Shown one piece after another: positions 2,930 to 60,424 of a stretch of 64,000 nucleotides of DNA. The translations under genes were made by a program, and so were the position numbers. Below the pieces are notes generated by a model, which was not told where the DNA came from, made no database searches, and was given only the letters and a program-made list of their open reading frames with translations. The stretch spans positions 9,930,917 to 9,994,916 of the forward strand of contig OY727101.1 in assembly GCA_963402885.1 (NCBI GenBank), read 5' to 3'. The stretch is from Antedon bifida. Its lineage: Eukaryota; Echinodermata; Crinoidea; Comatulida; Antedonidae. Each line of letters begins with the position of its first letter. Position 1 is the first letter of the stretch.

Positions 2930-5226
2930 CTAGGACTTGTAACCATAATACTGCTCTTGTACATCTTTAGAAACCTTCTTCTTTTTCAGATAGGCAAGCT
3001 TGCCTCTGCTGCTAACCATACTCTCCACAGTTGGCTTGGCACTGCTGTATACTGGGCTCTTTGTCTGTGAAGAAAACAATGCCAGCTAACATAGTAACTA
3101 TTTTTTATTTATTTTTGTTGTAGCCAATATATATGAAATGAAATATTTTCAGTGACTAGAGGCTAATTTGATCAGGGAAGTGTAAAATTAATTTTACTTT
3201 TACCAGATTTGATTGATATCTCTATCTAAAATATAATTATAACACTTGTAATAGTTGGTATTATATAACACCTAAATAAATTCCTGTCATTTGATTGGAC
3301 GATTGTTGATCACATGGCATGCAATAGTACACATTTTTAATTTTTTTGTGAATGAAAAAAAAAATCTTTTGGTTTGGACATTTTTTTTAGACCATTACTT
3401 TTAAAATCCAATGATGATACGAGTGTATCATTACGAAAGTACATTTTTGGACCAAATAAAAGCATTTAAATTAGCTTTAGATTATTTTTATGATTTTGAT
3501 TAATTAATGGGAAAATCTCGAAAATGACGTGGAATCGTTGGAAATAACAGAATTAGCCTAGGTCAGTTCCAGTTGCCTGTCAAAGTTTCGTAATGCATTT
3601 AGAAATAGCCTAAAAAACATATTTACCTGAGGTCCAGCATAAACAGCTGAAAAATTTGCAAAGCTTCCTACAGCTTCATAATCTTTGGTCGTAGCACAAG
3701 TTCTTCGAAACAAAGCATTTGTCTTATGTCTTCAATTAAAACACATAACCATAATGATTAATTTTTCAAAAAATAAATAAAATGAGAAATATGTCATTAA
3801 TATGTAAATATTTTTCCCATCATATAAAACATTTCTGAGATGGTTGATCTAATGAATAGAAGAACATTTAATGTGATTACTATCTATCACATTAAATATT
3901 ATTAAGATAATTGTAGTTATATACATTTGTAGCTACAACAAGTAAAACAATCTTACATGTTTAAGCGTGCTAGCGTGGCATTTTTATCACTGGCTAACTT
4001 GGAAGATATCTGTAATGCTGCGGTACCAGCAACAGTAATATCCACATTCTAAAAAATGAAAGTAGAAATATGAATGGAGTTGGAATCATTAATCTAGGGC
4101 TATAACCAAAGAAGAAAATGAAACAATAATAGTTCTGTTCACATATTCTGTTCTGATATTTATAACAATTTAAATATTATATATTAAAAAAAACAATGTT
4201 TCACTTTTCAGAACTATCATTCAAGAAAAAATGAGAATATAAAAAGTATTATATGCCAATTAATGACAGGAAATACAAAACAATAAGCACTAAATTTGTG
4301 ATATGTTTTTTTCAGGTGACGTCACAGATCAGATTGGAGATCACACCAACAGTCTACACGAGAAAGCGCAATCAGCCTATGCAAAACATAGTTTTTGTAC
4401 TTTAATTGGATCAACCAAAAAGAACATCACATTTAAATTAATAATTTTAATTGTGAAAGAATACATTTTATCCCATAATCTGGAATATTATGAATTGACA
4501 TTATTGAAGAATATTTTTAATGGGATGCATTGTACTACTGTAGTGTACAGTGTCATTTGCATTGCATTATTAAATACAATAATGGTTACCTCTTCAAATT
4601 CTTTAGTACTTTTGGTGACTCCACGTTCGTCACTGATAACACGTAGCATCTTTCTCCCATCTTTTTTTGTGTATTTTATTTGAGTCTAATATCATAAAAG
4701 CAATTTTGTTAAAAGTTATGTTTTGATTTATTCTTTCTGTATTCATTGTAGGTTTTACATGGAAGGCTTAAGATGAAATACTGTAATTTGGAAGTCAAAT
4801 TTTAAGACAATTCTTATCTTACATTTTTTCTATTTGTTACAGTGCCTGTTCAAGAACATGGAACACCATTCGAAAAGAGAAGTGGATTGTCTGGGGCCTA
4901 CTGATCTCGGTAGGCACTTCACTGCTGGCTTCTGTGGGTCGGTATATAGCCTAATCTAATGTTTTGTTCATTTTAGCTTGGGGATGATTATATAACATTT
5001 ACATTCACTATGTGTTTCTAATGCAGTTGTTTAAAACTTAATTTCAAAAAATGATAAATTAATAAAAACATTTTTGTCTATTGAAAGAGTGTACCAATAT
5101 CTCAGATAATGATTTTACCTGAAATGGTAACTTTGTCAAGTTAAGATCATTCTTTTGCCTGAAACTGAATGTCAGTGTACTCTTGCTTGTTACACAGCCT
5201 AGTGTTTGCTGGATCTTGCTTGTACC
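2930..5226 (-). CDS. cpras1: Exons 14-18: C-terminal region of the cpRAS protein
   Basis: Residues 615-791, exons 5119-5226, 4590-4685, 3957-4048, 3627-3729 and 2930-3064. No known domain was recognised. The first part is rich in beta-forming residues; the middle ([16 protein letters not shown]) looks helical; the end has a basic run (KKKK) and finishes with tyrosines (EQYYGYKS). All joins keep the frame and the last exon ends with TAG. Confidence 0.85.
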
Positions 5227-8200
5227 CTATAAATATAATAGTTAAATCAAAGAAGAATTATTTTGATTAAAACAAACTACAGTATTGTGTTTTAGAATAC
5301 AGTATTAGGCACTTTTCTTTCCGATAAAAACATGGCCATTCTTCCACAAAATATTAGGGACTTTCAGATTTGCACGTCCACTAAGATGACTGAGCAAAGT
5401 GCATTGTGTAAGAGATACTAGGCTTATGTTCTTACGCATATTTCTTCTTCAATATCGAAAACAAATAAGTATGTTAATGCAACTATGCACGCTGCCTTAT
5501 AAATGAATAGGATGACATCATATGTTGAAATTAATTACTTCTTCTGCTCCTTAGCTAATAAAAAAAACACCCTCCTACTTTTGAGTTAGACTGTTCATCA
5601 ATAAACTCCAGGCAAGGATGAAGGATCATATTGACTTGAACATCAGTTGCTATGATGACATTTTGTGCTATCTCTCTCAGCTGTCTGGTTAATTCTGTAG
5701 AATGTAAGATATTTGTTTCTCCTCCTGAAATGGCTGCAGCCTCACTAACAACTTCCATTTCATGTTGATTCTCTTTAATTTCTATTCCAATGATGGATAT
5801 TTTAGTCTGTTGCTCATATGCAATGTTTCCAATCTGAAGTTGAAGAGTCAATACTAAAGTTGAAAATGTATTTGTAGTTTGTTGATGTTATTATCCCGGA
5901 TATACCCAAAATACCCAACTTATTCTTTCAATAAACTACAATTTGGGATTTAAAAAAAATAGAATCAGGGTAGAATGCATATGTTGACAAATTTCAGGTT
6001 TGTAACATAATGCTATTATTATCAATGGAATGGATAATTAAAATGGAGAATGTATAGGTCATACCTCATTATAGAATGATGTTCTCAAATTAGTTCTTTC
6101 CATGCTACCAACTCCAACATTTGGAATTCCATCAGTACAAAGAACAATTTCAGAACCTGGAATCTTGGATACCATACCAACACAGATTGCCAAAGCAGGC
6201 CCAAGAGCTGTTGAACCTGCAACCTTCAGATTTTCAACAGTAGACTTCAGGGAACTGGCAAATAAAGATTATATTGTCCACATTAAAAATGTATTGTTCT
6301 TCAAAACATGAACAATTAATATGAGTAAAATGAAACTTTGAATAGACTATTTTGTAGTTTTAATAAAATTATCCACTTTCAGAAAAAATGTATGATTTCG
6401 CTTAGAAAAAACCAGTTAAATTAACTAGAAATGCTGTTTCTTCTATTTACAACAAATTATCTTTTAAGGATGTATTGTACTGGGGGATGGCAAGATTGCA
6501 CAAAAGTACACATACTGAAAAACCATACACACATTATCAAACAAATACACAGTCATTAAACACAATTAACACAGTTTATCAGTACATATTAATAATACAA
6601 TACAAACCAATATTATCATCAAAATACAATAATTGGAAAGTAAAGTATATTATATGGTATTGAATATTTTAAGCATCTCTAAATATGCAGCATGAGATAC
6701 AGATATAAACAAAATGCCAAACCAAACATTTTTTATTGTTTCATTACCTCAAGGAATGGTCAATTTCTTTAATATCGGTCATCAAACCCTTTCCCAGGTT
6801 CAGAAGTTGTTGTACATTTACTCGCTCAAGATTACGTTGAGTGGTACTTGTGTGAGGATTTGTGGCATCACCATAAATAATTACAGTGTTGTTGAAGGCT
6901 ACCAAACTAACACGCTTTTTAGGATTTTCCAATTGCAAACGTTCAAGTTGCCTGTCAGAAAAACAGTACATAAATATATCAAGAGCAGGCAGATACCACG
7001 ATCACAAAAAAGTGTGATATTGTATAATATGTGAGTGGTAGCCGAATTTCTTATAAATACAAACTCGCTCATGACCTGATTGGCTCAGATTAGGAGCGTC
7101 TAACCACGAACACGGCTAAAATCATTGACAATAATTTCTGTAATATTGAAGATATTTTTTTTCTTCCACTTCAAAGATCAACAAATACCCATCAAATGTG
7201 AAGCTTTAATTCTGTAAGACATTACTTGTGAAGAAAGAAAACATGATCTTTCCTACCTTACAATAGCAATCCTCATACAATCAATACGGTTAACAGATAC
7301 TTGTCTTTCACTACCAGACTTTACTTCATTCCACAATCCTATAACAAAAACCATCAAACTTACTACATAATATAAGATGTCATCATATTGCCCACAATGA
7401 GCCATTTACACACCATGGGTAGTGCTACAACATTTATACAGTGAGATACAATATATTAATATTATACGATACAATATTATTTATTGTCATTAAAGTAACC
7501 AGGTACAAATGAAATTTGGTTGGTTGGTTTACATTTTGATTTACATCAATCATACAATACAAAAAAAAAGCGGGTAATCAATGAATATAAAGAGATCTTA
7601 CAAACTTGCAATTAAATATGTTAACATAATTATAAACAAATGATTGTTGGCAGTGTTTAGTGTTTTGATTCAGAGTGATCAGTCTACCAGTTTGACAAAC
7701 AAACAAATTTATTTAGTTAGGGTAAAAAATTACACAGAGAAACATTTCTGAACAAAAGAATGACTTGCCATGATTCATCATTTTCACTTCAAACTAAATT
7801 ATGGTAAAATTCAATGTAAGGCAACAAAGAAGGAAAAAAAAAGTTTTTTTTATTATTTGTGGAATATTTATTATGGAATTTACAGTTTTTTCTAAAATGT
7901 AATTGTTTTACCTTGAAGATCAGGCATTGTAGTCTGTGATAGCATAGACGTGCTGATATCAATACAGTAAATAACAACACCTTGATTACTTTCAACTGAG
8001 GTGGCATTGTCAGAGACACTACTGGCAAGGTGCGGTGATGCTTCTAGCAGAAAATCAACTGAATTTTCTTTTGAAATCTAAAATAAATTATATACACCAT
8101 TAAATAAATACAGTAGGCCTATCCACAATATTTGTTCATGGAACTATTTTCAGAGCTGGAAAAATGATAATCACATGAGATTCAGTAGTTTTTAATTAAC

Positions 8201-11200
8201 TGTTACTACAAAGGCATTATAATATGGTACTGAATGAAAACTATGAGACTAGAAGTGCATCTAGTTACTCTAGAGTCAGACAATGCCTACAGTATAATTT
8301 TCCTATATAACAAAATTGTGGCCTCTGGACTGTTCACAGAAAGAAAAAAAAAAAAAAAATACCTCTTCAACATCCATACCGATATCTTTATTCTCACTTG
8401 AACAGAATTCACTGATAGAATAAAAGAAAGAAAAATATTTTACAATTTACATTTGAAACGACATTAAATCTACATACTGTAGTTCCATTGATACATATTA
8501 TTTACCTCCGCCAAGGAGGTATATGTAATCGATCGCGTGTGTTTGTTTGTCTGTCTGTTTGTTTGTTAGCAGGATTACTCAAAAAGTAATTACAAGATCT
8601 TTACCAAAATGAATATACATAGATATGTGGTCAAGGACCATTCCATTAAATTTTGGGACCATTTGGGACCATGGTCCCAATTCTGAACCATTTTTTAGTA
8701 TACTTTTCAGACCTGCTAGTGTTAAAAGATAGGACAGAATTTTTCAAAAGCCGGCGAGCAGTCTTAAAGTAATAAGTAAACTGAAATTGCATTTTCTCGA
8801 GAACTACTTGTCCAAAAAACTTCATTTTTGTACAAGAGGCAAGAGTTATAATTGGTGATTTGTAATTCTAAAACACAATTTGATTTAATGTGCACCGTTT
8901 TTGATGCGAGTAGTTTAAAAAACCTATTTCTTTTCAAATTCACTCGTTTGATTTTCGCGTTGCTTTTTGCACATGCTTGTAGTGAAATTAGCCTAAATCA
9001 CAAACAGCATTAAGACACACACAAATATATATATTTTTTCCCGGAGAAATCTTATGTAGGAGAATTTTACAGTAGGCGGAGGTATGCACTCTCGGAGTGG
9101 CTTTCTAGTTATTAGTTTTTTTTCATCCCATTGGGTTGGCCACTCTTGTGCTTGCCATAACAAAGTGATTCAACTGGTAGGGTTGTTAGCCCAATGCAGT
9201 TATAAACTTCAGAACACAAGGGTATCTTTCTAGAAGATGCACTGGAAGTGCACACAAGCCACATGTACACTGAACCTCATGTCTTATACACAAGACATGT
9301 ACCATAGGAATAATGGCCCAGGAGTGCCTTGAAACTGCACCGATATTATGATTGCAGTTTGGATTACCCCTGCCTTTACTGCACTTTAGTCAACTTCACA
9401 TACAAACAATATTCTAATAATACTGTTAATAACTGTATGAAATCTTAAAAATTAAAAATCAGGTAATTAAAACACTTGGAAAAAAAGTTGACGGTTAAAT
9501 AATTTCAAATATAAAAGTATTTATTACCACTTCCAAGTTGTGGTTTCATCTGCTTTTTGAAGCTGTGATAAATGTGATAACACAACATTACATTTAATAC
9601 AATGCATTGGCTCTCCAGCCATGATAGTAGGTTCTTCTTCCAATGTACTCAGTGATAACACCACAACATTAACATTCCTGTCTGAAGATTTCATTGGCTG
9701 TGAATCTATTTCAAGAAAAATTAGAAAAAGAAATGTTAACTCCAAATAGAGAGACAGAACACACAAAATTAGAAGTTTCGATATATTTGATCATGACTCA
9801 TTTTGGTGTCAAAGACTAATTACTGTAAACACTTAAATGGACTAGAAAAATCCCGGCAAATACAAAAACATTTATGTTAATCATTGCTATCATTATAGTC
9901 TGTAAGAATGTATAGTTCACATGGTTTAAGTAGTTTTGTTTTTTACAAATTATTTTTATTTGGTCGCACCTTCACAAGTTGAAGTCTGTCACTGATATAA
10001 AAGTGCAGTACCAATATAGTATTATAATGGACTGTGATGTTTTTTATGACAAAAGAAGTTTTTGTTCTGTTTGTTAAAGGCCCACTTGTACTAGGACGAT
10101 AACTATCGGCAATGATGAGATAAATGTGCATTTTCCCTTCATAAAATAAATAGACTAGTTTTCATCCCAGAACTATGATAACCACATGCTGCCTTTGATG
10201 AAAATAATGTTTTCACAAGCTTGATCAAATGACATCATTATAAGAAAGAGCAATAATATAGTGATGATATAACAATTTTATTGTTCTTATTGATCATGGC
10301 ATCATTTGATTAGATTTTTATTATTAGTTCTATTATTTTTATCAAAGACTGCATGCATTATTGGTTATCTTGTAGTTTTAGGATGAAAAGTGTCTAATTT
10401 CTTTGGTTTTATTTATGTAAGAAAAATGTATGTTTATCTATTTATCGTCATTCGTTATCGTTCGTAGTATAAACAGGCATTTAAATTAACTGAATCAATA
10501 TAGTGAATTTTTAATCATTTTGATTCATTCAAAGCAATACAACTGATACTACTTACCCATCCTATGTTTCCCAAAGGCTGAAATTTAATTTAAAGGTAGT
10601 TCTTTAATGAATCAAAACAACAAAATAATATTTTCTCTTGGGGCATTTCTTAATTAATAATAATAGACTGCTAATTCTTAAAAAAAAAAGGAACTAAATT
10701 AAATATCATACCACATGCATCAAAACACAACTGCGCTGAAATGATCGGAGTAATAATGTTTACCGTGCAATGAGAGCCTGCTTATGAATTATATAAGAAT
10801 GAACTACTATTAGGTGATGCAAGGTACTACATATCACCTATTGTTTTTCTTAACGTTTTTTTTTCCTGTATTTTGTGACGGCCTTACAATTACAACTTTT
10901 ATTACTAGAGGGTTCGCTCGCGCACCCTCTAGTGGGTGTACCCGAATGGTCCTCGAAAACATGACCAACGCCTCTGGAATTTGAAGCCCAGGTGACACCT
11001 ATGCATATGACTGATAAGTATTGTATGTTTATTTTGTGATGTTTCATGGTGGTCCATAAATTAGGTACGCCAAAAATATCGCTTCCAGGGTAATGTAGCA
11101 AATTAGAGTTAAAAAAATGTACGAATAGAGAACAATATAGGCTAATTATTATATTCGGTCTTCCGCCGAATGTGTGTGTGAGATTTGAACCTGTACTGAA

Positions 11201-14200
11201 AATAAGTTTGGTAAGATGCGAAATGTATACCAATTATGATTGATTACGTCCCCTGTCAGTAATGATGTATGGACACTTGACAGCAATCGGTGGTTAGGAA
11301 CGTAAAGGGGAAAAGTTACTCAATAGATTTATTTATTTGTAAACAAAATGTACATTAATTCTCCCTGTAATGATGTAAAAACTTTCAACAATAGGTATTA
11401 CAACAATTGGTATTAATCAAATAATATAATTGTAAAGAACAGTATATGTATAATATACATATTATATTATTATATATATTATCTGAACGTTACACACAGG
11501 AGGAAACCGTTAATAGGGGTCATCAATCACTGAAACAGTCTCTAACATGACCGTACCAAGAGACCAAAAGCATAGTTTATCAACGTAGGTGACAGTGAGC
11601 GGGGCTTTAACATTTGTATCACAATATATCATGACAACAGCATCTTGTTAATTTTGGAACAAAATGATCAAATAACAACTTTCGTAGCCTACTTATTCGG
11701 TCGTAGTAGACACCATTTATAATTATATATAGAGCAAGCAACAGAAATAATCGATAAACAGTAAAGGTGTTTCCCTGGTAGGCATGGCCTCCTATAGTAA
11801 CATTGAATCGCACCTAAATTTGTTAAAATGATTAATAAATAGCATAAATAATTAGTTAAATTACTAAAACAAATTGTATTTCACGTAAAGTAAAGGCCTT
11901 TATAATTGATATTTGAATATCTAAAACAAAAAGTGTAGTTCATGATTCAGTTGAATCACTAAAATCACATTGTAGTTCACATAAAAGTAAAGGCCTTCAA
12001 TAAAAGTTAAATTACTAAAACAAATTGTAGTTCACGTAAAGTAAATGCCTTTAATCAATATAATTGATTAGTTGAATATCTAAAACAAATTAATTTCAGT
12101 AGTTCACGATACGTTGAACCACTAAAATATTTTTTTTATTTAATATTGAATGGCGCCACCAACGGCCATTTTGCCGGAAGTGACGGACCCAAAAGCCAGT
12201 TGAACAACAGCGCGAGTGTGTGAAAATAACCCTGTGATATCCACAAATTTCAATAGGTAACGCTAAATTTTGTCTTTGTAAAAGACAAAAGTGGAACAAT
12301 AGCGTCGATTTGAAAACTAATGTTATCAAATCTACGTTTCGCGGTACATCTGAGATAGATAAGGTAGGTATCCATGGCGGAGATTTGTACCGAAGTTTTT
12401 GCATTGTGCTCGCCTATGTCAGAATTAACCATAATTTATATATAGATTGTATATGGAAGCTGTTGAATTGTAGAAATGAATTCATATAAAAATTGTGATA
12501 TATGGTTTATAGACAAATTTAAAAAGTAGCATTTTCATTTCTTTCCATTTTAGTATAAAGTTTAAAAGAGCGCACTACAAACATATTTACTTCAGGTGAT
12601 ATAGGCTAGCATGGCATAGTCAATTTTCTTTGCTCTAACATGTGCATGTTACGCTTGCGCCTCATTGCACTGACGCATACCACCTCAATATTAAATTATA
12701 TATCTTTGATATTTATTTGTTTGATGTTTCTTACATTTTTTTTCCTTCTTCTTGCCAACCATTTTTCCTTTGTCACTAGCTGATTTTAACTTGTCTTTAG
12801 GAATGTCCGATACTGTGATCTGCTTACGAAAGCTGTCCTCAATAGTTGGATCATATTCTTCAAGGAAGTTATCACAGGTAAATCGTATTGTAATAGCAGA
12901 TTTGCCAACACCTCCATCACCGAGTACCACCACCTAAACACAATGTTGACAATGTACAGGTCATATTTTAACTTAAAATGTTAGAGAGTAATGACAATGA
13001 AATCTCCACAATTAAAAATAGAAAAAAGTAATAACAAATGTTTTAATATAGTTTATTCTTTCCAATTATGGGGAAGGGTACCATACTTTAGTACCATATT
13101 CAATTATTATAAACTAGAAATGTAGCTTGGGTACGTTTGGAACTAATTTTATACACTTAGTCCAGTTCATTATATAAAAAGACAGTTAAGCACATTATAA
13201 ATTTGTTATTACTAATTTTGATAATTCTTTCATACCTTGTATTCAATACTTGTACGTGGTGTTTGACGAATAAGAGTCTTAAAAACTTCTTGAATGTTTT
13301 CGCCTGTTTTTGCAGAAGTTTCCAAAAAGGGAAGATTAAATTGTGCGGCAGCAGCCATTCCTTGCTCATAACTGACTTCTCGATTCTGATCAAGGTCTTT
13401 CTTATTTCCACAGAGCACCTAGAAAAAAAAATATACAAATCTAAAATTATGCATACATTTTTTATATTACAGATTTGAGTAATGCTTTAAAAAAATGATT
13501 CTATCTGTAAGATGTTAATATTTGACTGCTAGGATATTGAATCTAAATTTTGGACCATTCTTATATATTTGCATTCATTTGCATCAGTACAACATTTTAT
13601 GAAAATGTATTAAATTACTGCTATACAGTTCACCATAGCACAGCTGCACAAAGCGTAACCTTTAGATATGAGTAGCCATTATCTGATTCGGTACAAAACA
13701 ACACTGTACTTACTGCTGGGACAGATTTCGTCTTTCTGATCCTTGTCGTAAATTCATATATTCTTTTCGCAGCTTCCAATGAGGCTAACGATGTGACAGA
13801 ATACACAATTAGAAATGCCTGTCCATCTCTCATATACTGTAAAACAAAGCAAACAAACGGTTAACACTCTTCCCCCACTTCACCTCTCCACAACAGTTTT
13901 AGATCTGTGACAATTAATTTTCTAATAGAAGCAATTGTTGAGTCCGATAGAGGGATACAGACCAAATATTGTATTCTTACACTTACAGTACCTAGTGTGG
14001 ATATATAAATCACATGGCATGTAAACTCTAACCAACACTTCCGTATCTTACATTTGTCATATTTGATTGAGACTTTACAATTTTTTCGTTTTTGACTGGA
14101 ATTGTTTTCAACAAAAAAGCTTATGTTGTTGAACATTTTCAATTCAAAATATTTTCAGTTGAGCACAATTATTTTAATTTAGAATTTATCAGTTGAATAC

Positions 14201-15156
14201 AAAAAGTAATCAATGAATTATTTTGACCTGCCATGAAATATGCCAATGTTTTATTCATTTGTATTTATGGCACAAATGTATTGCTTAAATAAAATGTCTA
14301 TGGTATAATCGTGTCAATATAATTTCTTATGATGAGCATGATGTCAAAACAAAAGTTTGTTTACCTGATCTCTCAACTTAGAGTACTCTTCTTGTCCTGC
14401 TGTGTCTAAAATATCAAGTAGACAGGTCTGCAAAAAAATAAAACAGCTAAAATGAAATAATGAACTTTTTTTGATACATTTTTTTATACAGAAAACAGTT
14501 ATTAATATTATATGTTAGTGCTCCCTGTTTGAAAATCCATCCATACCCCTGTCAAATCAACTAGCAAAACTCCGGAGACAATCCAGAGTTTAATGGTAAA
14601 ATTAAACAACTCCGGAGTTCAAAACAGCGGGGTTGAACAGCTGAATGTTCTCCTGTGGGCGAACTGTGAAGACACACCGGGACGGTCAATGTGAAACACT
14701 GAAAGGTACCAACTTTAAACTTTGTTTATAGGGCAAAAGGTTATCTCATATGATCAATCATTGCTTTAGTTTACTTAAAAATACAAGATATATAGGATAA
14801 TAGGAGGCATGACATAAATAAATTAGCAGACTTGAAAATTGATTGTTTGAAATTTACACATTAAGTATCTTTTACAGTTATGAGTTAAAATCAAGAAAGT
14901 TTTTATTTTTAGATAGTGAACACAGATTAACGAACAATGATTACAAACAATGTTCTCATTATAAATACGCACACACATATACTTTTATTCCAATACTTAG
15001 TTTAGTGTCACAAAAACAAATTGTTACCTCACAATCATCACCTGCTGCGAATACTTGGTCTATAAGATGTTCGTCAAGATTTATCAGTTCCTCATCTTCC
15101 ACATCAACATCATCCCCTTTTTGTGCAACATAGATAAACTTATTTCCAAAATCCAT
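2930..15156 (-). CDS. cpras1: Circularly permuted Ras GTPase / Zn-finger / vWA protein, 18 coding exons
   Basis: Likely regulatory GTPase fused to a vWA module. Coding exons, 5' to 3' on the minus strand: 15028-15156, 14365-14427, 13714-13836, 13236-13418, 12735-12933, 10557-10577, 9528-9705, 8363-8411, 7912-8077, 7257-7338, 6748-6951, 6065-6254, 5579-5833, 5119-5226, 4590-4685, 3957-4048, 3627-3729, 2930-3064. All internal borders are GT/AG and phases agree; the total is 2376 bases, 791 residues plus TAG. Residues 44-200 are a Ras domain in the order G3 (DTAGQ 51-55), G4 (NKKD 110-113), G5 (ETSAK 138-142), G1 (GDGGVGKS 171-178), G2 (YDPTIEDS 193-200). A lysine-rich linker, a CxxC/CxxC finger (275-302), a vWA domain (about 349-585) and an unassigned C-terminus follow. 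Start chosen: first ATG of the exon, context GCCATGG. The cpRAS-vWA architecture is a described family (circularly permutated Ras protein 1); cellular role unknown. Length resembles the family. Confidence 0.93.
5579..8077 (-). CDS. cpras1: Exons 9-13: von Willebrand factor A domain
   Basis: Exon 9 (7912-8077) contains [12 protein letters not shown], the first strand and the MIDAS motif DxSxS (Asp355, Ser357, Ser359). Exon 12 (6065-6254) supplies the other MIDAS residues: Thr481 in GSTALGPAL and Asp507 in [10 protein letters not shown]. Exon 13 (5579-5833) provides the last strand (ISIIGIEI) and closing helices. All five metal-site residues are present, so the domain should bind a divalent cation and a ligand. 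No signal peptide precedes it, which fits an intracellular vWA protein. Confidence 0.9.
8363..9705 (-). CDS. cpras1: Exons 7-8: Sec23/Sec24-like zinc finger
   Basis: Exon 7 (9528-9705) ends and exon 8 (8363-8411) begins inside the codon for Cys299. Together they give CIKC (275-278), about 20 residues, then WKCEFC (297-302). This CxxC...WxCxxC spacing directly ahead of a vWA domain is the layout of the Sec23/Sec24 zinc finger and trunk. The intron between the two exons contains a complete CCTCCGCC-type mobile element (8504-9110). Zinc binding is inferred from the four cysteines; a direct link to COPII is not implied. Confidence 0.75.
8504..9110 (-). mobile_element. CCTCCGCC-family non-autonomous element, intronic copy
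   Basis: One end carries ACCTCCGCCAAGGAGGTA and the other GGCGGAGGTATGCACTCTCG. The same two ends, in the opposite orientation, bound 36612-37202. No coding capacity. The copy sits in the intron between the two zinc-finger exons of the cpRAS gene. A further fragment of the family (TGTGGCCTC...CTGTTCACAGA) lies at about 8318-8345. Superfamily not assigned. Confidence 0.7.
10557..10577 (-). CDS. cpras1: 21-base micro-exon of the cpRAS gene
   Basis: Flanked on the minus strand by AAATTTCAG and GTAAGTAG. It takes one base from the previous exon and passes one base to the next, encoding SFGKHRM in the linker between the GTPase and the zinc finger. Without it the frame would still be kept (21 = 7 x 3), so it could be skipped without loss of frame. 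Supported by phase and splice consensus only. Confidence 0.7.
10904..10933. repeat. Hairpin with 10-bp arms
   Basis: ACTAGAGGGT and ACCCTCTAGT are exact reverse complements around a 10-base CG-rich loop, in the large fifth intron of the cpRAS gene. It is probably the terminus of a small unnamed repeat. Confidence 0.5.
11845..12120. repeat. Degenerate tandem repeat, about 70-bp period
   Basis: The motif CTAAAACAAATTGTAGTTCA, followed by GTAAAGTAAAGGCCTTTAAT, recurs about four times with substitutions and small indels. It lies in the cpRAS intron between exons 5 and 6. The rest of that intron (10578-12734) holds a GC-richer patch at 12150-12420 without a supported gene. Confidence 0.6.
12735..15156 (-). 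CDS. cpras1: Exons 1-5: circularly permuted Ras GTPase domain
   Basis: The N-terminal 43 residues are acidic and end with the equivalent of the Ras beta3 start. Exon 2 gives [16 protein letters not shown], the switch II region of Ras, including the Gln that corresponds to Ras Q61 (residue 55). Exon 3 (13714-13836) carries the core after switch II. Exon 4 has NKKD and ETSAK. Exon 5 (12735-12933) then brings the P-loop GDGGVGKS (Ras G12 and G13 equivalents both Gly; Lys177 and Ser178 for phosphate and magnesium) and switch I with Thr196 (Ras T35). The cut lies in the beta2-beta3 hairpin of ordinary Ras. All nucleotide and magnesium residues are kept, so an active GTPase is expected. No CAAX box follows; exon 5 ends in a Lys-rich stretch. 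Confidence 0.93.
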
Positions 15157-19735: not shown

Positions 19736-20866
19736 GTCAAGTCGGCCCCAAACCGTCTCGGCCAAAGTCAAGTCGGCCCCACGTCAAGTCGGCCCCAAGT
19801 CAACTCGGCCTCAAGTCAACTCGGCCTCAAGTCAACTCGGCCTCACGTCAACTCGGCCAAAAACTAATCGGTCAACTCGGCCACAATAAAGTATGGAACG
19901 CAAAAAGTGCTTAATATTCTTATGATTAAGTTACTATCCACGCTTTAAAAAAAATGAAGAAATAAGAAAAATACTCTCATCTCATCTCATTGCCGATATG
20001 AATAGAAGTACCGGCCGCGTGTTACAAAACACGTGCAAGTACCACATTTTAGTAAATCGAAGACGTAGGTCTACGTTCCCCCATTTGGCCATAGAAAAAA
20101 TGATCGTAGCCTACATATCGTTTTTGTCCATTATTTGCGTTTAAAAAAAAGGGGAATTCCCCGGTCAGCGGAAACACGTAGCTGCCGAAATAGCTGCCAA
20201 AGGCGCAGGGAGGCGCAGCTACGAATTGGTTTCAGATATTGTCGCCTAAACAAATGCAAACACTGAAGAAATCTACGCGTGATTCAACCATGGAGTCAAC
20301 ATTATTTTATACCTCAAATGATTCAACCAAACAATCTTATTACACCTAATGAATGTCCTCGCATATCGGACAGGTTTATTGAATTTTGACGCACGAACGA
20401 ACATACGCGCCCACGTACGTGCATCATCATTATTGGGCCTACAATTTGTTCCTATTTATTATCCAAATGTTCATTGTAATCATTAATAATAGTATGAATG
20501 CTTATCAATCAATTGTTTGTTATGCGCAATTTGAACAATTTTCGCAATTTGAAATTTTATTAAACGTAAATATTAAAAGGAAAGTTTTTTTTGCTAAACG
20601 TAGTGTCTAAATATTAATATTCATTAAAATTCAGAATTATTCATAGGTAATAAAATGTGAAGAAATATTATTTTATTAATCCCCTTCCTTTACACTTTTT
20701 GCGTTCCATACTTTAACGGGGCCGAGTTGACCGAATATTTTTTGGCCGAGTTGACGTGAGGCCGAGTTGACTTGAGGCCGAGTTGACTTGAGGCCGAGTT
20801 GACTTGGGGCCGACTTGACTTGGGGCCGACTTGACTTTGGCCGAGACGGTTTAGGGCCGACTTGGA
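19736..20866. mobile_element. Foldback element with arms of 16-bp tandem repeats (TU-like)
   Basis: The left arm (19739-19911) contains tandem copies of CAAGTCAACTCGGCCT and a CAAGTCGGCCCC variant, then the inner sequence AATAAAGTATGGAACGCAAA. The right arm (20694-20866) is the reverse complement in mirrored order. The loop of about 780 bp has no convincing gene. Sea urchin TU elements are known to have outer inverted domains built of about 15-bp repeats, which this resembles. Fragments of the family lie at 15826, 18747 and 49925-49990. Confidence 0.75.
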
Positions 20867-23533: not shown

Positions 23534-26500
23534 TTGAAAATGATCCAACTGGACATTAAAGTCGCAGGAGATCCAAGTGAAATAAATTTATTAGAATTAG
23601 AGAGAGTTAAACTGGAGCTAGAGGAGCTGGATGCACAGTTGATCAATGGCCTTATTGTAAGATCGAGGATTAAATGGGCAGAAGAAGGAGAAAAAAGCAA
23701 TAAATATTTCCTAGGTTTAGAAAAAAGAAATAATAGAAAAAAACAATGTAAAAAAATAATAACAGATGCAGAGATAGAAATAACTAATCCACAAGATAAA
23801 TTAAATTTACAAAAATATTATTACGAAAAAGTATACAAATCGAATACTCAAATAAATGAAAGTCTTACAGATAACAGTTTTTTCAATAGCGAAAGTATCC
23901 CAACTTTAACTGAAGAAAGTAATATAATCTGTGAAGGAGACCTGACAATTCGAGAATGTTACAATGCCCTTAAAAGCATGCCACAAAATAAAAGCCTTGG
24001 TAATGACGGTTTATCAAACGAATGGTATTTAAAATTCTGGGATATTATAGATCCAATAATGGTAAAAACACTTAATATAGGTTTAAATAGCGGAAAAATG
24101 AGTACCTCACAGAGACAGGCGGTAATAACTCTTATTGAAAAAGAAGGCAAAGACCGATGCAAATTAAAGAATTGGAGACCCATATCATTACTTAATGTGG
24201 ACTACAAAATAGCATCGAAAGCACTATCCACTAGATTGAGCCAGTTTATTCCTTCCCTTATCCACATTGATCAAACCGGTTTTGTAAAGGGCCGATACAT
24301 TGGCGAGTCAGTACGAACTATTGAAGATATTATGGAGTTTACCAAAATAAAAAATATTCCAGAATTTATGCTTTTTTTGGACTCAGTATGAAAAAGCATT
24401 CGATTCGCTTGAATGGGGTTTTTTGTTTCAGGTTTAAAAAAAAGTAAACTAAAAAATAAAATTTATTCAATTCATAAAAGCATTATATACTAATATAAGT
24501 AGTTGCGTGATAAATAATGGGCAGTCATCAAGTTATTTTCCAGTTGGAAGGGGTGTACGACAGGGTGACCCCCTCAGCCCTTACTTATTTATCCTATCAA
24601 TAGAATTACTAGCATGTGCCATACGAGACGATAAAACTATTAAGGGGATTGCAGTAAGTAATAGACAAATTAAAATAACTCAATATGCAGACGACTCCAC
24701 ATGCTTTTTGAAAGATGAAGTGTCAGCAAAAAATATAATTAACTTAATAGAGAAATTTTCAAAAATATCGGGCTTGAAATTAAATATAAGCAAATCGCAG
24801 GCTATATGGCTTGGTTCAAATAGGCGATGTAAAAACAAACCAATACATATGCAATGGCCACAACAACCAGTAAAAGCATTAGGAGTTTACTTTTCTTATA
24901 ATGAAAGACAACGGGAAAAATGTAATTTCGAAACGAAAATTAAACAACTAAAAACAATATTAAACATATGGAGAACCAGACAACTAACCTTAGCAGGAAA
25001 AATAATTTTAATTAAAACATTCGCAATATCCCAATTTATATATTTAGCATCTGTCATACATATACCGCCCCATGTAGTTAAATCAATTGAAACAATTCTA
25101 TTTAATTTCTTATGGAACGGTGGTAAAGGTATGATAAAAAGAACAACATTAATTGGGAATATTGAAGAAGGCGGCTTAAAAATGGTAGATATCAAAAGTA
25201 TGTTTAAAGATGTATTGTCCCTTGAAACACAAAAAAATGAAGGTCAAAATATTCTAAATTTAAATTGGCCATATCAAAGTAATATTAAAGTTATTCACTT
25301 TAAGTCGAAAATTCGAGCCAAAAACAAAAATTTTACGTAATTAACAGCTAAATTAATTTGATAACATTTCGTCTGGAAAATCGAAATTGAAAAAGTAAAC
25401 AAAGATTTCAAACCATGAGTATACATTATGCATGATGCTAATTAGGATTGTTTACAACTCGTCACGGTTGAGAAGGTGTTTTCACACAGATCGCGAGGAA
25501 GTTTTATGATTATGCATACAGAGTAGCCAAATAAGGGCGTTGCATTATGAGATATGTTTTGATCGAAAACTTTGACTGGAAGTCAAAGTTATTTTTTGAA
25601 CCAAAAAACGTCTGTATTTCAGTTAAATGATTTTTTTTCCCACTAATTTTTGGTGAAAGTTAATAACTATTATGATACTTCAAAATGACCCACTTTTTTT
25701 TCGAAATCTTTTTTTTTTTTTTTAGGAATTTGACAAAGGGACAATACATCTTTAAGGCATTAAAGATAAAATGGATACAACGATATAACATAAATGTCAA
25801 TGCAGCATGGAGATCTCTACTACATAGGTTCCTAAATAAGCAAGGAGGCGACACTATTTTTTATTGTAATGTACCGTAAGCGCGGACTGTGTCCGTAGTT
25901 GGAAAAATATTCCATTGTTTTATAAGGATATGTTAAACGCTTATTTCGAATTAATACATCCTGATACAGTAAACGAAGGGTCCCAATATATATGGTTTAA
26001 TAGGCACATGCATATACATGGCAAGCCATTTTATTACAAGAGCCTCAGAGATGTTGGGATATGTTTAGTAAGCGACCTTTTTTATGAAAACGGTAATATC
26101 ATTCCCTTTAATACGTGGATAAAGAGAGGCTTATCGACAAGTAATTTCATGCACTGGAGAATGACGATATCTGCAATACCCCCACAGTGGAAAGCAAACA
26201 TGAAGCTAGGGTTTTTACGAACAAATTATAAAAAGAGAGGGTTTATAGTGGAAGTAAAGAATGAATAAAAAGAATTAGAAAGTATGAGTACAAAAAATAT
26301 ATACAGAGCCTTAATTAAAAAAATATTTAAAATACCAACATCTCAAAGTAAATTGCAGGATGAATTAGGTGTAGATAGCGATAAATGGGAAAATATCTAT
26401 GTATTACCATTTAAATGTTCTCAGGAGGTAAGAACCAGAATATTTCAGTATAAAATTAATGTGAATTGCTTGTCAACTAATAGTAGACTACATAAAATGA

Positions 26501-26886
26501 ATATTGTACCGAGTAATATGTGTTCCTATTGTGAATCAAATATTGAAACTATGACCCATCTTTTGGTTGAATGTAACATTGCAACCAAACTATGGGATGA
26601 ATTCACGACTTGGTGGGAAAACATTTCAAAAACAAAGATTAACCTTGATAAAACCTCCATATTATTTGGTTACAATACAGAAAATCCTGATATGTTATTA
26701 AATCTATGTATTTTGTTGATTAAGAAAATTATATTTAGTTACAAATTAACTCACAAAAAGCCAGTTTTCCAGGTTTTCTTTAATCGGTTAAAATTTAATT
26801 ATAACGTAGAAAAAAACATTGCTTCTAAAAGAAGTACATTGTATAATTTCAGACAAAAGTGGAGATTAATAGAAGATTATATTTAA
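23534..26886 (+). pseudogene. Reverse transcriptase and C-terminal part of the LINE ORF2
   Basis: RT catalytic block YADD is at about 24694 (QYADDSTCFL); the FEKAFDSL-type block is broken by a frameshift near 24391. After YADD the thumb and linker (IWRTRQLTLAGKI, FLWNGGKGMIKR) are intact up to 25200, where the MITE enters in the codons for MFK; the frame resumes at 25757 with ALKIKW. The last 200 codons end with TAA at 26886. Coding remains are AT-rich like the rest of the element. Confidence 0.8.
25204..25755. mobile_element. TTAA MITE inserted in the LINE RT frame
   Basis: The ends TTAAAGATGTATTGTCCC and GGGACAATACATCTTTAA are perfect 18-bp inverted repeats including the TTAA target. Taking the element plus one TTAA out makes the LINE frame continuous, so the insertion and its TTAA duplication are directly supported. 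Length 552 bp. Shares ends and the segment GGTGAAAGTTAATAACTATT with the shorter copies at 27852-28196 and 41230-41569; the middle is longer and different. Confidence 0.85.
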
Positions 26887-32614: not shown

Positions 32615-33190
32615 TTGTTGACACAGCACTTCCCCATTCTGGACAGAAATTTCCCCATTCTGGACAAATCGGATATTGGAAAGCTTCCCTATTTTGGACA
32701 CAGAACTTCCCCATTCTGGACAGAAATTTCCCCATTTTGGACAAATCGGATTTCTCTATATTGGACAGCTTCCCTATGTTGGACACAGCACTTCCCCATT
32801 CTGGAGACAGTAATTTCCCATTTTGGACAAATCGGATTTCTCTATATTGGACAGCTTCTCTATTTTGGACACAGCACTTCCCCATTCTGGAGACAGAAAT
32901 TTCCCCATTTTGGACAAATCGGATTTCTATATATTGGACAGCTTCCCTATTTTGGAAACAGCACTTCCCCATTCTGGAGAAATTTCCCCATTTTGAACAA
33001 ATCGGATTTCTCTATCGGACTGCTTCCCTATTTTGGACACATCACTTCCTCATTCTGGAGAGAAATTTCCCCATTTTGGACAAATCGAATTTCTCTATAT
33101 TGGACAGCTTCCCCATTTTGGATACGATATAGCGCCACCTATCGCTTTTGTCGTTATTCTGGACAAAATATTTCCCCATGATTCTGCACA
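32615..33190. repeat. Composite minisatellite, CCCCATTTTGGACA core
   Basis: A sub-unit of about 20 bp containing TTCCCCATTTTGGACA is organised into higher-order units of about 90 bp (with AAATCGGATTTCTCTATA and GGACAGCTTCCC). About six higher-order units. Because the unit lacks stop codons in several frames, overlapping frames of 60-190 codons stay open on both strands; these are by-products of the repeat and are not genes. Confidence 0.85.
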
Positions 33191-33194
33191 AAAA

Positions 33195-33475
33195 TTTCCC
33201 CATTTCATTTTGTGTTGACAAAATTCATTTTGTGTTGACAAAATTCATTTTGTGTTGACAAAATTCATTTTGTGTTGACATAATTCATTTTGTGTTGACA
33301 AAATTCATTTTGTGTTGACAAAATTCATTTTGTATCGACAAAATTCATTTTGTATCGACAAAATTCATTTTGTATCGACAAAATTCATTTTGTATCGACA
33401 AAATTCATTTTGTATCGACAAAATTCAATTTGTATCGACAAAATTCATTTTGTGTCGACAAAATTAATTCTGTTT
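33195..33475. repeat. 20-bp tandem repeat array, left inverted arm
   Basis: About 14 copies of TTCATTTTGTGTTGACAAAA; after the sixth the variant TTGTATCGACAAAA takes over, showing block-wise amplification. It is followed by GAGCGTGTTACAGAACGTTT. Array and flank reappear inverted at 37225-37625. Confidence 0.9.
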
Positions 33476-33825: not shown

Positions 33826-35976
33826 TTATTAGGCCTATTTAATAATTTTATCTATAGAAATATTATTTATTAATCTTATAAAATGAATATATTTTAAGAT
33901 AAGGATAATGTACAGTCAGTAACATAAAATATAGTTCGGATATAAAAAGTTAAAGAAAATTAGAGATCACAACTTAAAGATAATAATGGATTAATAACTT
34001 CACCCGAAATAATTTTATAAAACTGTAAACTATACACTTCATAAATAATATAGGCCTAAATATAACTGTAGTATATTATATACATTCAATTACTACTGTA
34101 CCTTTTGATAAATTAGTTTTGACATTTTTAGTCGCGTGCAAACACGACTCTGTTGGTCGGTCGGTCGGTCGGTCGGTCGGTAAACACTAACTCAAATTTG
34201 AGCAGGCGACTGCAGCCATATATATGGCCTTCTTTATTTTTAGGGTACTCTGACTGGCATGTATACATTATCATGAGTGATTTATTGATTAGTGTAATAC
34301 TGGTTCAAAGCAGGCCTATATAGTGTGGTTGTATGGTATAGTAGATAAGTGTGGTTTTAAACGTGTATTATTAGGCCTATTTAATAATTTTATCTATAGA
34401 AATATTATTTATTAATCTTATAAAATGAATATATTTTAAGATAAGGATAATGTACAGTCAGTAACATAAAATATAGTTCGGATATAAAAAGTTAAAGAAA
34501 ATTAGAGATCACAACTTAAAGATAATAATGGATTAATAACTTCACCCGAAATAATTTTTATAAAACTGTAAACTATACACTTCATAAATAATATAGGCCT
34601 AAATATAACTGTAGTATATTATATACATTCAATTACTACTGTACCTTTTGATAAATTAGTTTTGACATTTTTAGTCGCGTGCAAACACGACTCTGTTGGT
34701 CGGTCGGTCGGTCGGTCGGTCGGTAAACACTAACTCAAATTTGAGCAGGCGACTGCAGCCATATATATGGCCTTCTTTATTTTTAGGGTACTCTGACTGG
34801 CATGTATACATTATCATGAGTGATTTATTGATTAGTGTAATACTGGTTCAAAGCAGGCCTATATAGTGTGGTTGTATGGTATAGTAGATAAGTGTGGTTT
34901 TAAACGTGTATTATTAGGCCTATTTAATAATTTTATCTATAGAAATATTATTTATTAATCTTATAAAATGAATATATTTTAAGATAAGGATAATGTACAG
35001 TCAGTAACATAAAATATAGTTCGGATATAAAAAGTTAAAGAAAATTAGAGATCACAACTTAAAGATAATAATGGATTAATAACTTCACCCGAAATAATTT
35101 TTATAAAACTGTAAACTATACACTTCATAAATAATATAGGCCTAAATATAACTGTAGTATATTATATACATTCAATTACTACTGTACCTTTTGATAAATT
35201 AGTTTTGACATTTTTAGTCGCGTGCAAACACGACTCTGTTGGTCGGTCGGTCGGTCGGTCGGTCGGTAAACACTAACTCAAATTTGAGCAGGCGACTGCA
35301 GCCATATATATGGCCTTCTTTATTTTTAGGGTACTCTGACTGGCATGTATACATTATCATGAGTGATTTATTGATTAGTGTAATACTGGTTCAAAGCAGG
35401 CCTATATAGTGTGGTTGTATGGTATAGTAGATAAGTGTGGTTTTAAACGTGTATTATTAGGCCTATTTAATAATTTTATCTATAGAAATATTATTTATTA
35501 ATCTTATAAAATGAATATATTTTAAGATAAGGATAATGTACAGTCAGTAACATAAAATATAGTTCGGATATAAAAAGTTAAAGAAAATTAGAGATCACAA
35601 CTTAAAGATAATAATGGATTAATAACTTCACCCGAAATAATTTTTATAAAACTGTAAACTATACACTTCATAAATAATATAGGCCTAAATATAACTGTAG
35701 TATATTATATACATTCAATTACTACTGTACCTTTTGATAAATTAGTTTTGTGCAAACACGACTCTGTTGGTCGGTCGGTCGGTCGGTAAACACTAACTCA
35801 AATTTGAGCAGGCGACTGCAGCCATATATATGGCCTTCTTTATTTTTAGGGTACTCTGACTGGCATGTATACATTATCATGAGTGATTTATTGATTAGTG
35901 TAATACTGGTTCAAAGCAGGCCTATATACTTAGTGTGGTTGTATGGTATAGTAGATAAGTGTGGTTTTAAACGTGT
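33826..35976 (+). repeat. Four-copy tandem array of a 543-bp unit
   Basis: Units start with TTATTAGGCCTATTTAATAA at 33826, 34368, 34911 and 35454 (spacing 542, 543, 543). Copies are almost identical; the last is slightly shorter, with a small deletion and fewer GGTC repeats. Each unit contains a (GGTC)n microsatellite after CACGACTCTGTT, and the inverted motif GCAGGCGACTGCAGCC. No gene. An (AT)n tract (35988-36017) follows. Confidence 0.95.
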
Positions 35977-57080: not shown

Positions 57081-59984
57081 GTGTTGCTTTGCAATATTCG
57101 TGGAGGTACAATAAAATATAGTTCAAGAAAAAATAAAGCCCTTCGTAATTTGGAAAAAGAATTAATTAATAACATAGAAGAGATGGAAAACGATCTCGCA
57201 CAACAAACATTAGACATTACAGTCACAGAACACCGAGTAAAAGAAATTGAACAAAAAAAAGCACGCCTAGAAGACATTCGAAACGAAAAGCTAAAGGGAG
57301 CATTTATTAGATCTCGTGCTAAGTGGATAGAAGAGGCTGAAAAGCCAACCAAATTTTTCTTAGGTCTCGAGAAAACTAACTTTACGAACAAATTAATAGA
57401 CGAATTAATAGATGAAGAAAAAAAAACTATATTGGACAATAAACTTATAATAAAGGAAGTTGAGCGTTTTTACAGTTCTTTATATAAAAAAAAAGATATA
57501 GAGCAAATAGATTTAAACGTATTAATAACAAACCAGAACTTCGAAAAAGTTTCAGAAGAAGAGTCTCAAAAGCTTGAGAGTGAATTGACCTTAGCTGAGC
57601 TTACAAATGCACTCAACAAAATGAAAAACAACAAATCACCTGGAACAGACGGCTTTACGTCTGAATTTTTCAAGATTTTTTGGGGGAAACTGGATGCTCT
57701 ACTTCTTCGTTCTTTGAAATATGGCTTTAAAACTTGTAACCTTTCAGTCACTCAAAAACAGGGAGCAATCACTCTAATCCCAAAGGCGAATAAATCAAGA
57801 AAAGAATTAAAAAATTGGCGTCCTATATCTTTATTAAATGTTGCTTACAAAACTGCTTCATCGGCCATAGCAGAGAGGCTAAAATCTGTCTTTCCAAATA
57901 TCATTAATGAAAACCAAGCGGGATTTATAAAAGGTAGATATATTGGTGAAAATGTTCGTATTTTATATGATATCCTCTCACTCTATGACGAACAAAACCT
58001 ACCTGGTCTCGTATTACTGGTAGATTTCGAGAAAGCTTTTGATTCCCTGGCGTTCAAATTTATTGATAAGTGTTTGACCTTCTTTAATTTTGGACCAACT
58101 CTTAAAAAATGGTGTAGACTTTTTTACACGAATATCTCTTCATGCGTTCTAGTTAATGGACACCCCAGCAATTTTTTCAATATTGAAAGAGGTTGCAGAC
58201 AGGGCGATCCGCTATCTCCATACCTATTTATTCTGGGAGTGGAAATTCTAAACATAATGGTACGCCAAAATATTAATATTAAAGGAGTAACAATTGATAC
58301 CTCTGAGATTAAAATGTTACAATACGCAGATGACACTGCATTTCTTCTGGACGGCTCACACAAATCACTTACTGAATGCATGAGTACACTTTCAAAATTT
58401 GAAAAGATGTCTGGTTTAAAAATTAACATTTCTAAATCCAAAGCAATATGGTTTGGATTAAAAAAGTTCCCGAGTGAACAAATTAAAACTAATTCAAATC
58501 TTGACTGGTGTGATAAAGGCCGTTTTGATTTTTTGGGTGTTACATTTGACTTAGAAATAAGCAAAATGACTAAAATAAATGTTGAAGAGATAACGGGTAA
58601 AATTAGGTCTACTATCAATGTCTGGCGTAAGAGAAATCTTACTGTGTTGGGAAGATTAACTGTGTTAAAATCTTTAATATTATCAAAACTTAATTATATT
58701 TTTACAATGTTGCCAAACCCTACTACAGCTTATCTAAGTGAACTTAATAGGATGTTTTTTAATTTTGTCTGGAAGGGAAAGGATAAAATCAAAAGAAATA
58801 AGCTAATTAGAGAGTATAAGGATGGCAGAATTAACATGATTGATATCTTCAGTTACATAAAGGCAGTTAAGATTAGTTGGATGCGAAGAATTCGTAACAA
58901 CACTGGAATTCTCAATGTAGTTTTCAACAAAATATGCCATGGTAAAAAAACTGAATCAATCTTTGAATACGGCTCATGCATGATTCAGAGGCTGTCGAAA
59001 AATATGAACAATTTGTTCTGGAGAGATGTTCTCCATTCATGGTCCGAGTTTATTGCTATTCATAATTCAACAGCATCTGCAAACTATAACGTACTAAAAG
59101 AACCAATATGGTTGAATGATTCGATTCTAATCAATAACTTTCCAATTTTTTACACCAATTATTATGAGTGTGGCGTAAGGTTCATAAATAATTTAATCTC
59201 GGATAGAGGAACCTTGCTTAGTTATGAAAACTTCAAAACACACTATAAGGTGAAAAAAAATAATTTCCTTAAATACTATGGAATAATTGATGCAATTATA
59301 ACTAAATACCCTTCTTTGGGTACAGAAATAAATACTAAATTACAAAACCCAATAAATTTACCCATACTTGAAACCATAACCAAACCCCAAACAGGATGTA
59401 AAGCTTTTTATAGTAAGTTTATTCAAAACAAAGACTTTAACTGTAAAGCTAAACAAAAGTGGGGTAAAATCTTAAATGTTGAATTCTCGGAACATGAATG
59501 GGAAGGAATTAATGCTGCAACTTTTAATGTGACCGACAACATAAAATTACGATGGTTCCAATACAGACTTAACAACAGTATCCTCACAACTAAAGTCTAC
59601 CTTAAGATTATTAAGTACATCGACGAAGATAACTGCTCTTTTTGTAACATTAGAAGAGAAACAGTTTATCATTTATTCTGTAAATGTAATATCAGTAGAT
59701 GGATAAGCAATTTTTTTTTTCAATGGTGTTCTCGAAATCTTGATATTCGCATATGTGTTTCGGAAAGTGAACTGCTTTTTAGTAATACACCATCCAATAG
59801 GATTAATTTACTTTTGTCAATACTAAAGTTGTATATATATAAGAGTAAGTTTTCGGGCCTCCTCTCACCCACCGGCCTCATAAGCTTTGTAAAATATTAC
59901 TTTACAATTAAAAAGTTTAGATGTTTGATTAATAATAGAGCCGAAGAATGGGAAGAGTGGAGTGCCTGGGATAATCTTCTGTAA
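57081..59984 (+). CDS. LINE ORF2 remnant with full reverse transcriptase, 967 codons open
   Basis: N-terminal 90 residues form a charged coiled linker (NLEKELINNIEEMENDL). RT blocks: NKSPGTDGFTSEFF, NWRPISLLNVAYK, GFIKGRYIGENVR, VDFEKAFDSL, GCRQGDPLSPYLFIL, YADDTAFLL (Tyr415, Asp417, Asp418), then thumb and linker, and a C-terminal CxxC...H..C cluster (Cys852, Cys855, His864, Cys867). No stop in 2.9 kb, so the insertion is recent, but without the endonuclease it could not mobilise by itself. The true start is lost; ATG 57081 is internal. Confidence 0.85.
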   Translation: MLLCNIRGGTIKYSSRKNKALRNLEKELINNIEEMENDLAQQTLDITVTEHRVKEIEQKKARLEDIRNEKLKGAFIRSRAKWIEEAEKPTKFFLGLEKTNFTNKLIDELIDEEKKTILDNKLIIKEVERFYSSLYKKKDIEQIDLNVLITNQNFEKVSEEESQKLESELTLAELTNALNKMKNNKSPGTDGFTSEFFKIFWGKLDALLLRSLKYGFKTCNLSVTQKQGAITLIPKANKSRKELKNWRPISLLNVAYKTASSAIAERLKSVFPNIINENQAGFIKGRYIGENVRILYDILSLYDEQNLPGLVLLVDFEKAFDSLAFKFIDKCLTFFNFGPTLKKWCRLFYTNISSCVLVNGHPSNFFNIERGCRQGDPLSPYLFILGVEILNIMVRQNINIKGVTIDTSEIKMLQYADDTAFLLDGSHKSLTECMSTLSKFEKMSGLKINISKSKAIWFGLKKFPSEQIKTNSNLDWCDKGRFDFLGVTFDLEISKMTKINVEEITGKIRSTINVWRKRNLTVLGRLTVLKSLILSKLNYIFTMLPNPTTAYLSELNRMFFNFVWKGKDKIKRNKLIREYKDGRINMIDIFSYIKAVKISWMRRIRNNTGILNVVFNKICHGKKTESIFEYGSCMIQRLSKNMNNLFWRDVLHSWSEFIAIHNSTASANYNVLKEPIWLNDSILINNFPIFYTNYYECGVRFINNLISDRGTLLSYENFKTHYKVKKNNFLKYYGIIDAIITKYPSLGTEINTKLQNPINLPILETITKPQTGCKAFYSKFIQNKDFNCKAKQKWGKILNVEFSEHEWEGINAATFNVTDNIKLRWFQYRLNNSILTTKVYLKIIKYIDEDNCSFCNIRRETVYHLFCKCNISRWISNFFFQWCSRNLDIRICVSESELLFSNTPSNRINLLLSILKLYIYKSKFSGLLSPTGLISFVKYYFTIKKFRCLINNRAEEWEEWSAWDNLL

Positions 59985-60296: not shown

Positions 60297-60424
60297 AGAA
60301 GGTGTTTATATAGGAGAATTGATTATGTATACTTTTTCTTTTTTTACTCTGTCTGCTTTTTTTTGTATTCCGATGTATTAAAGAAAGATTGAAAAAAAAA
60401 ACAAAAAAAAAACCAAAAAAAAAA

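Follow-up and report, generated by a model that had tools for sequence, protein, structure and literature searches.

Analysis of a 64,000-nucleotide stretch of the Antedon bifida genome (assembly GCA_963402885.1, contig OY727101.1, positions 9,930,917 to 9,994,916 of the forward strand; hereafter the window, in which positions are counted from the first letter) led to the conclusion that a gene on its minus strand is, with a confidence close to certainty judging from its sequence, an intact animal member of the cpRAS-VWA (CPRas type 1) family. The encoded protein combines a circularly permuted Ras domain with a second half that matches the zinc finger, trunk and beta-sandwich models of Sec23 and Sec24 and carries a complete metal site. 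As the best reading of this architecture, which we favour with slightly more than even confidence, the protein would be a Ras that is switched by GTP and tethered to a metal-dependent binding platform of the Sec23/24 type.

Gene model

Exon boundaries were set by eye at GT-AG introns, and the exons were then joined by script. Splicing of the following 18 exons (15156..2930, minus strand) yielded a single open frame of 791 amino acids (aa).

Exon 1, 15028..15156, minus strand: start codon, the 40 N-terminal residues and the beginning of the beta3 half
Exon 2, 14365..14427, minus strand: G3 DTAGQ (aa 51-55, 14392-14406)
Exon 3, 13714..13836, minus strand: Ras beta4-helix3 part
Exon 4, 13236..13418, minus strand: G4 NKKD (13395-13406), G5 ETSAK (13308-13322), permuted joint helix5 - PRTS - IEYK
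Exon 5, 12735..12933, minus strand: G1 GDGGVGKS (12898-12921), G2 YDPTIED (12835-12855), then basic linker
Exon 6, 10557..10577, minus strand: putative microexon of 21 nt within the linker, frame-neutral and weakly supported
Exon 7, 9528..9705, minus strand: start of the Sec23/24-like half, zinc finger Cys275 and Cys278; 5' phase 1 intron common to the Ras-less paralogue
Exon 8, 8363..8411, minus strand: Cys299 of the zinc finger, whose codon is shared with exon 7, and Cys302
Exon 9, 7912..8077, minus strand: VWA/Sec23-trunk region, metal-site motif DISTS (aa 355-359, 7946-7960)
Exon 10, 7257..7338, minus strand: VWA/trunk
Exon 11, 6748..6951, minus strand: VWA/trunk
Exon 12, 6065..6254, minus strand: VWA/trunk, metal-site Thr481 (6209-6211) and Asp507 (6131-6133)
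Exon 13, 5579..5833, minus strand: end of the trunk region
Exon 14, 5119..5226, minus strand: Sec23/24 beta-sandwich match (aa 615-668 together with exon 15)
Exon 15, 4590..4685, minus strand: Sec23/24 beta-sandwich match
Exon 16, 3957..4048, minus strand: C-terminal to the beta-sandwich match of Pfam, with conservation in the paralogue
Exon 17, 3627..3729, minus strand: C-terminal region without family match
Exon 18, 2930..3064, minus strand: C-terminus and stop codon

The spliced frame runs without a stop to its final TAG and all 17 introns begin with GT and end with AG (in part a consequence of how they were placed), so that the intact 18-exon copy claimed in an earlier note on this DNA was confirmed, with exon 6 as its weak point; this exon (21 nt, frame-neutral) is weakly supported, and the protein without it comprises 784 aa. 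Judged on the genomic sequence, the exons also follow one another from high to low coordinates and include the one with the P-loop, as that note had assumed. Between 26 and 84 stops interrupt each of the remaining five frames of the spliced sequence; first-order Markov copies of it (n = 500) gave a mean of 54.5 stops with a minimum of 35. The GC content at codon positions 1, 2 and 3 amounts to 0.48, 0.37 and 0.31, respectively. Directly 5' of the ATG lie an in-frame TAG and a possible acceptor, and an upstream exon is therefore possible.

The permuted Ras domain

In the spliced protein the Ras motifs are arranged in the order G3-G4-G5-G1-G2, and the Pfam Ras model matched two separate stretches of the full-length protein (E = 7.6e-49), which together bear out the order proposed in the earlier note. 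Taken alone, the first half of the domain matched profile positions 46-160 (E = 7.4e-37) and the second half positions 1-45 (E = 9.9e-13), and a scan against NCBIfam returned the generic small_GTP model only. The domain is indeed spread over exons 1-5; the five motifs, which had been assigned to five in-frame exons, occupy three of them only (2, 4 and 5). The translation retains the P-loop, the Thr of switch I, DTAGQ including the Gln of switch II, NKKD and ETSAK, confirming the claimed preservation of the P-loop, the Thr and the Gln.

Comparison with PDB sequences gave 800 distinct sequences at E ≤ 1e-3. In the alignment with KRas (9g0y), query residues 163-207 correspond to chain residues 5-49 and query residues 41-158 to chain residues 50-166, stretches that we take to be KRas 2-46 and 47-163 by the customary Ras numbering, without gap or overlap. 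As these two pieces abut exactly, the cut falls in the beta2-beta3 turn, in agreement with the hairpin position given earlier; in the best PDB match listed, 5wdr, the two pieces overlap by two chain residues. The old Ras ends are bridged by about four residues (159-162) leading from helix 5 to beta1. This joint is contained in the single 183-bp exon 4, and the motif order therefore does not result from misordered exons in the assembly.

Like canonical Ras, the domain keeps the nucleotide, switch and catalytic residues, agreeing with KRas in 85 of 162 aligned residues and with 5wdr in 88 of 165; for KRas the agreement rises to 8/9 in the effector loop (32-40) and 10/10 in residues 53-62. In contrast to canonical Ras, the chain order is permuted, the domain forms only part of a large protein, and no lipidation box was seen at the C-terminus of the protein. 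Since the GTP-binding, switch and catalytic residues are kept, GTP binding and hydrolysis are expected as in Ras, and GTPase activity of the domain appears likely.

The second half and a Ras-less paralogue

The second half was scanned against Pfam as part of the whole protein and in separate segments. The segment scan gave matches to zf-Sec23_Sec24 (E = 1.7e-3), Sec23_trunk (PF04811; E = 9e-7, 29.2 bits at a cut-off of 27, residues 388-540) and Sec23_BS (E = 8.5e-7, residues 615-668), the last of which was also found in the whole-protein scan (E = 6.9e-6). Zinc finger, VWA-fold trunk and beta-sandwich lie on separate segments and follow the order carried by Sec23 and Sec24, the COPII coat proteins partnered with Sar1. 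Used as a single sequence, the second half found eight PDB matches at E ≤ 10, the best four being Sec24 (0.018-0.03) and the others unrelated.

A search of the source genome (315.6 Mb, 27 contigs; 57 of 83 candidates scored) revealed at least 42 matches at E ≤ 1e-3, including at least one cpRAS gene and a Ras-less paralogue, most of the others being Ras-family genes. The paralogue (contig C1, 9200361..9181376, minus strand) comprises 15 exons and 614 aa without internal stop; its model uses one GC donor instead of GT, and the exon preceding the first was not found, its one base being a placeholder. No Ras part was found in the assembled model. The second half of cpRAS shares 178 of 528 aligned residues with the paralogue, which likewise matched the trunk (E = 2.8e-8, 34.1 bits, its sole match over the Pfam cut-off), VWA_2 (2.1e-5), the zinc finger (3.2e-4) and the beta-sandwich (8e-4). 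A profile built from both genes and run against all PDB chains gave six matches at E ≤ 1, namely four Sec24 (0.0015-0.0025) and two Sec23A chains (0.15 and 0.21). Opposite the paralogue, within its 11.5-kb intron, two long open frames of 277 and 196 aa were observed (L010 8259-9743, on contig C1, plus strand), probably a nested gene and by eye resembling a PTB-domain adaptor.

The metal ion-dependent adhesion site (MIDAS) of VWA domains consists of a DxSxS motif, a Thr and an Asp. It is complete in cpRAS (Asp355, Ser357, Ser359, Thr481 and Asp507), and in the paralogue all parts are kept as well (DISGS, GQTALG, CTDG). In contrast, the site is incomplete in all three Sec23/Sec24 genes detected in the A. 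bifida genome: inspection of their trunk exons by eye showed DxSxS in one, the Thr in two and the last Asp in none, and yeast Sec24 lacks the MIDAS Thr and Asp in the two-gene-profile alignment. The second half of the protein further differs from Sec23 and Sec24 in being covalently joined to a RAS-family GTPase.

Membership in the cpRAS-VWA family

The G3-G4-G5-G1-G2 permutation was described in 2008 by Elias & Novotny (PMC2430557, used here and below from part of its text), who reported cpRAS from sea urchin, lancelet, sponge, choanoflagellate, Capsaspora, amoebae and Naegleria, a spread that matches the few metazoans and scattered protists of the earlier note. In their account cpRAS is most often fused to a domain named VWA or Sec23/Sec24 trunk, together with a possible four-cysteine zinc finger, and the function was left open, the domain architecture offering little clue to its role. 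Assignment to this type agrees with that description in several respects: the motif order and the beta2-beta3 cut, the RAS-family TIE-type G2 motif (here YDPTIED), the C-terminal VWA/Sec23-trunk domain, the four cysteines that most members carry upstream of it (here C275, C278, C299 and C302), and an unconserved N-terminal region of 40-66 residues, the Ras match starting here at residue 41. The window protein has no RING finger, unlike the Naegleria member, and its modelled length of 791 aa lies below the roughly 840-970 aa that PMC2430557 gives descriptively for the family. Ras-less relatives of the second half were likewise reported from sea urchin, a mollusc, an annelid, Dictyostelium, Entamoeba and ciliates (PMC2430557), and the A. 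bifida paralogue resembles these in its zinc finger, MIDAS-bearing VWA trunk and beta-sandwich match.

Another circularly permuted group, YRG/YlqF, has the order G4-G5-G1-G2-G3 with the cut elsewhere and stands outside the RAS family (PMC2430557), an order that the window gene does not show. Further papers (PMC8296547, PMC4082629, PMC11764893 and PMC3505798), as far as their text was covered, mention the gene in tables or refer to the 2008 publication. In the one library covered, a search for papers linking cpRAS or permuted Ras to Sec23 gave PMC2430557 and PMC6446729, the latter by its title dealing with endoplasmic reticulum ATP supply. The examined text of PMC2430557 mentions neither the beta-sandwich nor the MIDAS state of the second half; we thus regard the Sec23/24-like nature of this half, its MIDAS state and the boundary intron described below as modest additions to a known family.

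Two scans of viral contigs found no relative at E ≤ 1e-3, which is weak evidence of absence given six short peptides each. Two scans of prokaryote genomes, equally weak as evidence of absence with six short peptides each, gave one match at this threshold (L001, in a bin named Oscillospiraceae), which was rejected as a cpRAS relative because its small GTPase reads in canonical order. This Rab-like gene (L001 2782-3423) shows by eye a signal-peptide-like start and a C-terminal CC pair, and represents either contamination or a transferred gene.

Origin of the fusion

Comparison of the 13 intron positions in the second half and linker of cpRAS with the 15 of the paralogue revealed a single exact coincidence, a phase-1 intron immediately preceding xSxPMK, the point from which the two genes are homologous; the introns of one additional pair share a codon but differ in phase. 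This is suggestive, but not proof, of a Ras cassette having been joined at an old intron at the homology boundary, the case consisting of one coincidence with the paralogue's preceding exon missing from the model.

The introns in the Ras part of cpRAS lie after what we assume, by the customary Ras numbering, to be the equivalents of KRas residues 49, 70, 111 and 5, all in phase 0. None of these positions was seen by eye in three intron-bearing Ras-family genes (L012, L014 and L015, with partly approximate boundaries and the G3-G5 part only of L014), a comparison made without statistics on three of the many Ras-family places in the genome. This speaks against a recent local rearrangement of an ordinary Ras gene, an origin that we rejected. 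A further Ras-family gene of canonical order (L009/L013, G000:C10:7304276-7304761) forms a single open frame of 187 aa and is retrocopy-like.

Alternative explanations

The second half might be an ordinary VWA protein that resembles Sec23 and Sec24 merely through the shared VWA fold, and a number of results weigh on that side and against a Sec23/24-like platform. In the segment scan VWA_2 (E = 7.7e-6) comes close to Sec23_trunk, and zinc finger and beta-sandwich stay under their Pfam cut-offs; in the whole-protein scan Sec23_trunk is absent up to E 10, the zinc finger reaches only E = 0.02 and VWA_2 2.7e-4, so that each of the Sec23/24 matches is weak when taken singly. Compared on its own with PDB sequences, the beta-sandwich segment found no Sec23/24, both of its matches being Spc24, and the zinc-finger segment ranked a designed protein (E = 0.02) above Sec23A (0.15). 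All 13 genome-wide stretches of Sec23_trunk lie within the three Sec23/24 genes, with neither cpRAS nor the paralogue detected. The intact MIDAS is shared with many VWA proteins and sets the protein apart from Sec23/24, whose helical and gelsolin domains were listed neither up to E 10 for the whole protein nor in a scan of the last 108 residues, which had no Pfam match; a coat role is therefore doubtful, and the gene was not filed as Sec23/Sec24. On the other side, the zinc finger before and the beta-sandwich after the trunk match Sec23/24 models in both genes, and the two-gene profile finds Sec23/24 chains only at E ≤ 1. The Sec23_BS profile, run over the whole genome, gave six stretches at E ≤ 1; the three Sec23/24 genes account for five of these and the paralogue for the sixth (E = 0.077), whereas cpRAS itself was missed. 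The genome-wide misses may stem from scanning each exon by itself where domains are split, but we count them as contrary. Because the paralogue and the two-gene profile carry the claim, these scans left our estimate of the Sec23/24 likeness unchanged, and an ordinary VWA protein appears unlikely.

A little less probable again is a GTPase that no longer cycles and persists as a structural remnant next to a working Sec23-like half. Such a half can act alone, as the Ras-less paralogue in the same genome suggests, and Anand et al., according to PMC2430557, argued that this permutation impairs folding; decay would, however, be expected to have eroded the effector loop, the catalytic Gln and the motifs, and these are kept, including all five motifs. 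We consider it very improbable that neighbouring Ras-like and VWA genes were joined by the exon model: the boundary between the halves is exactly where intron 5 (2.1 kb) and the weakly supported microexon 6 are located, but the phase 1 donor of exon 5 is continued by exons 6 and 7 without a stop, and the same fusion has been published in several species (PMC2430557). An assembly artefact reordering an ordinary Ras gene has a next to negligible probability; although the evidence is genomic, the helix 5-beta1 joint inside exon 4 and the unbroken passage of exon 5 into the linker at the other cut both speak against it.

Proposed mechanism

In the proposed arrangement of a GTP-switched Ras on a Sec23/24-like platform, about four residues connect helix 5 of a RAS-family GTPase to its beta1, and the new ends lie in the beta2-beta3 turn. 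The Ras part would bind and hydrolyse GTP, and its Ras-like effector loop is expected to recognise partners of the Ras type when GTP is bound. The chain leaves the Ras part at the beta2-beta3 turn, which belongs to 'switch III', and passes via the basic linker into the platform (zinc finger, VWA trunk with MIDAS, beta-sandwich). This platform would replace the lipid anchor and, by binding a ligand, a cargo or a membrane protein via the metal site, keep the GTPase there. The nucleotide state may then gate platform binding or recruit effectors there. Switch III, composed of the beta2-beta3 loop and helix 5, has been coupled to the reorientation of H-Ras on the membrane (PMC4563131, from part of its text), and the new tether of the permuted Ras is located in this loop. 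The gene, its motif order, the domain matches and the conserved residues are seen in the sequence, whereas we infer the adaptor role of the protein, and its activity, gating, localisation and partner are predictions. A bolder and, in our view, doubtful proposal is that cpRAS might constitute a self-contained GTPase-plus-coat module, its Ras switch joined by exon shuffling to a Sec23/24 core with a working metal site, which as a GTP-gated cargo or receptor adaptor would read its own nucleotide state in cis without a separate Sar1/Arf.

Other features of the window

Upstream of the gene, an inverted repeat (19738-19909 / 20693-20864) has 172-nt arms of 96% complementarity separated by 783 nt, each arm carrying 16-nt GGCCGAGTTGACTTGA-type tandem units; it looks like a foldback or miniature mobile element. 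Dense minisatellite arrays with periods of 173/86/22 bp and 20 bp (32623-33473) yield repetitive open reading frames (ORFs). At positions 33840-35525 a unit of about 543 bp, above the period limit of the tandem finder, is repeated head to tail in three to four copies, with ungapped identities to the first of 427/543 for each of the second and third and only 230 for the fourth. Long ORFs with YADD motifs (57081-59984, 23534-26886 and 60389-62813; one of 967 aa) look by eye like reverse transcriptases of non-LTR (long terminal repeat) retrotransposons.

Implications

The gene represents an intact animal copy of a GTPase permutation that was once argued to impair folding. The shared boundary intron provides a concrete hypothesis for the origin of the fusion, and a Sec23/24-type half with a complete metal site would give the family a testable role, that of a GTP-gated adaptor.

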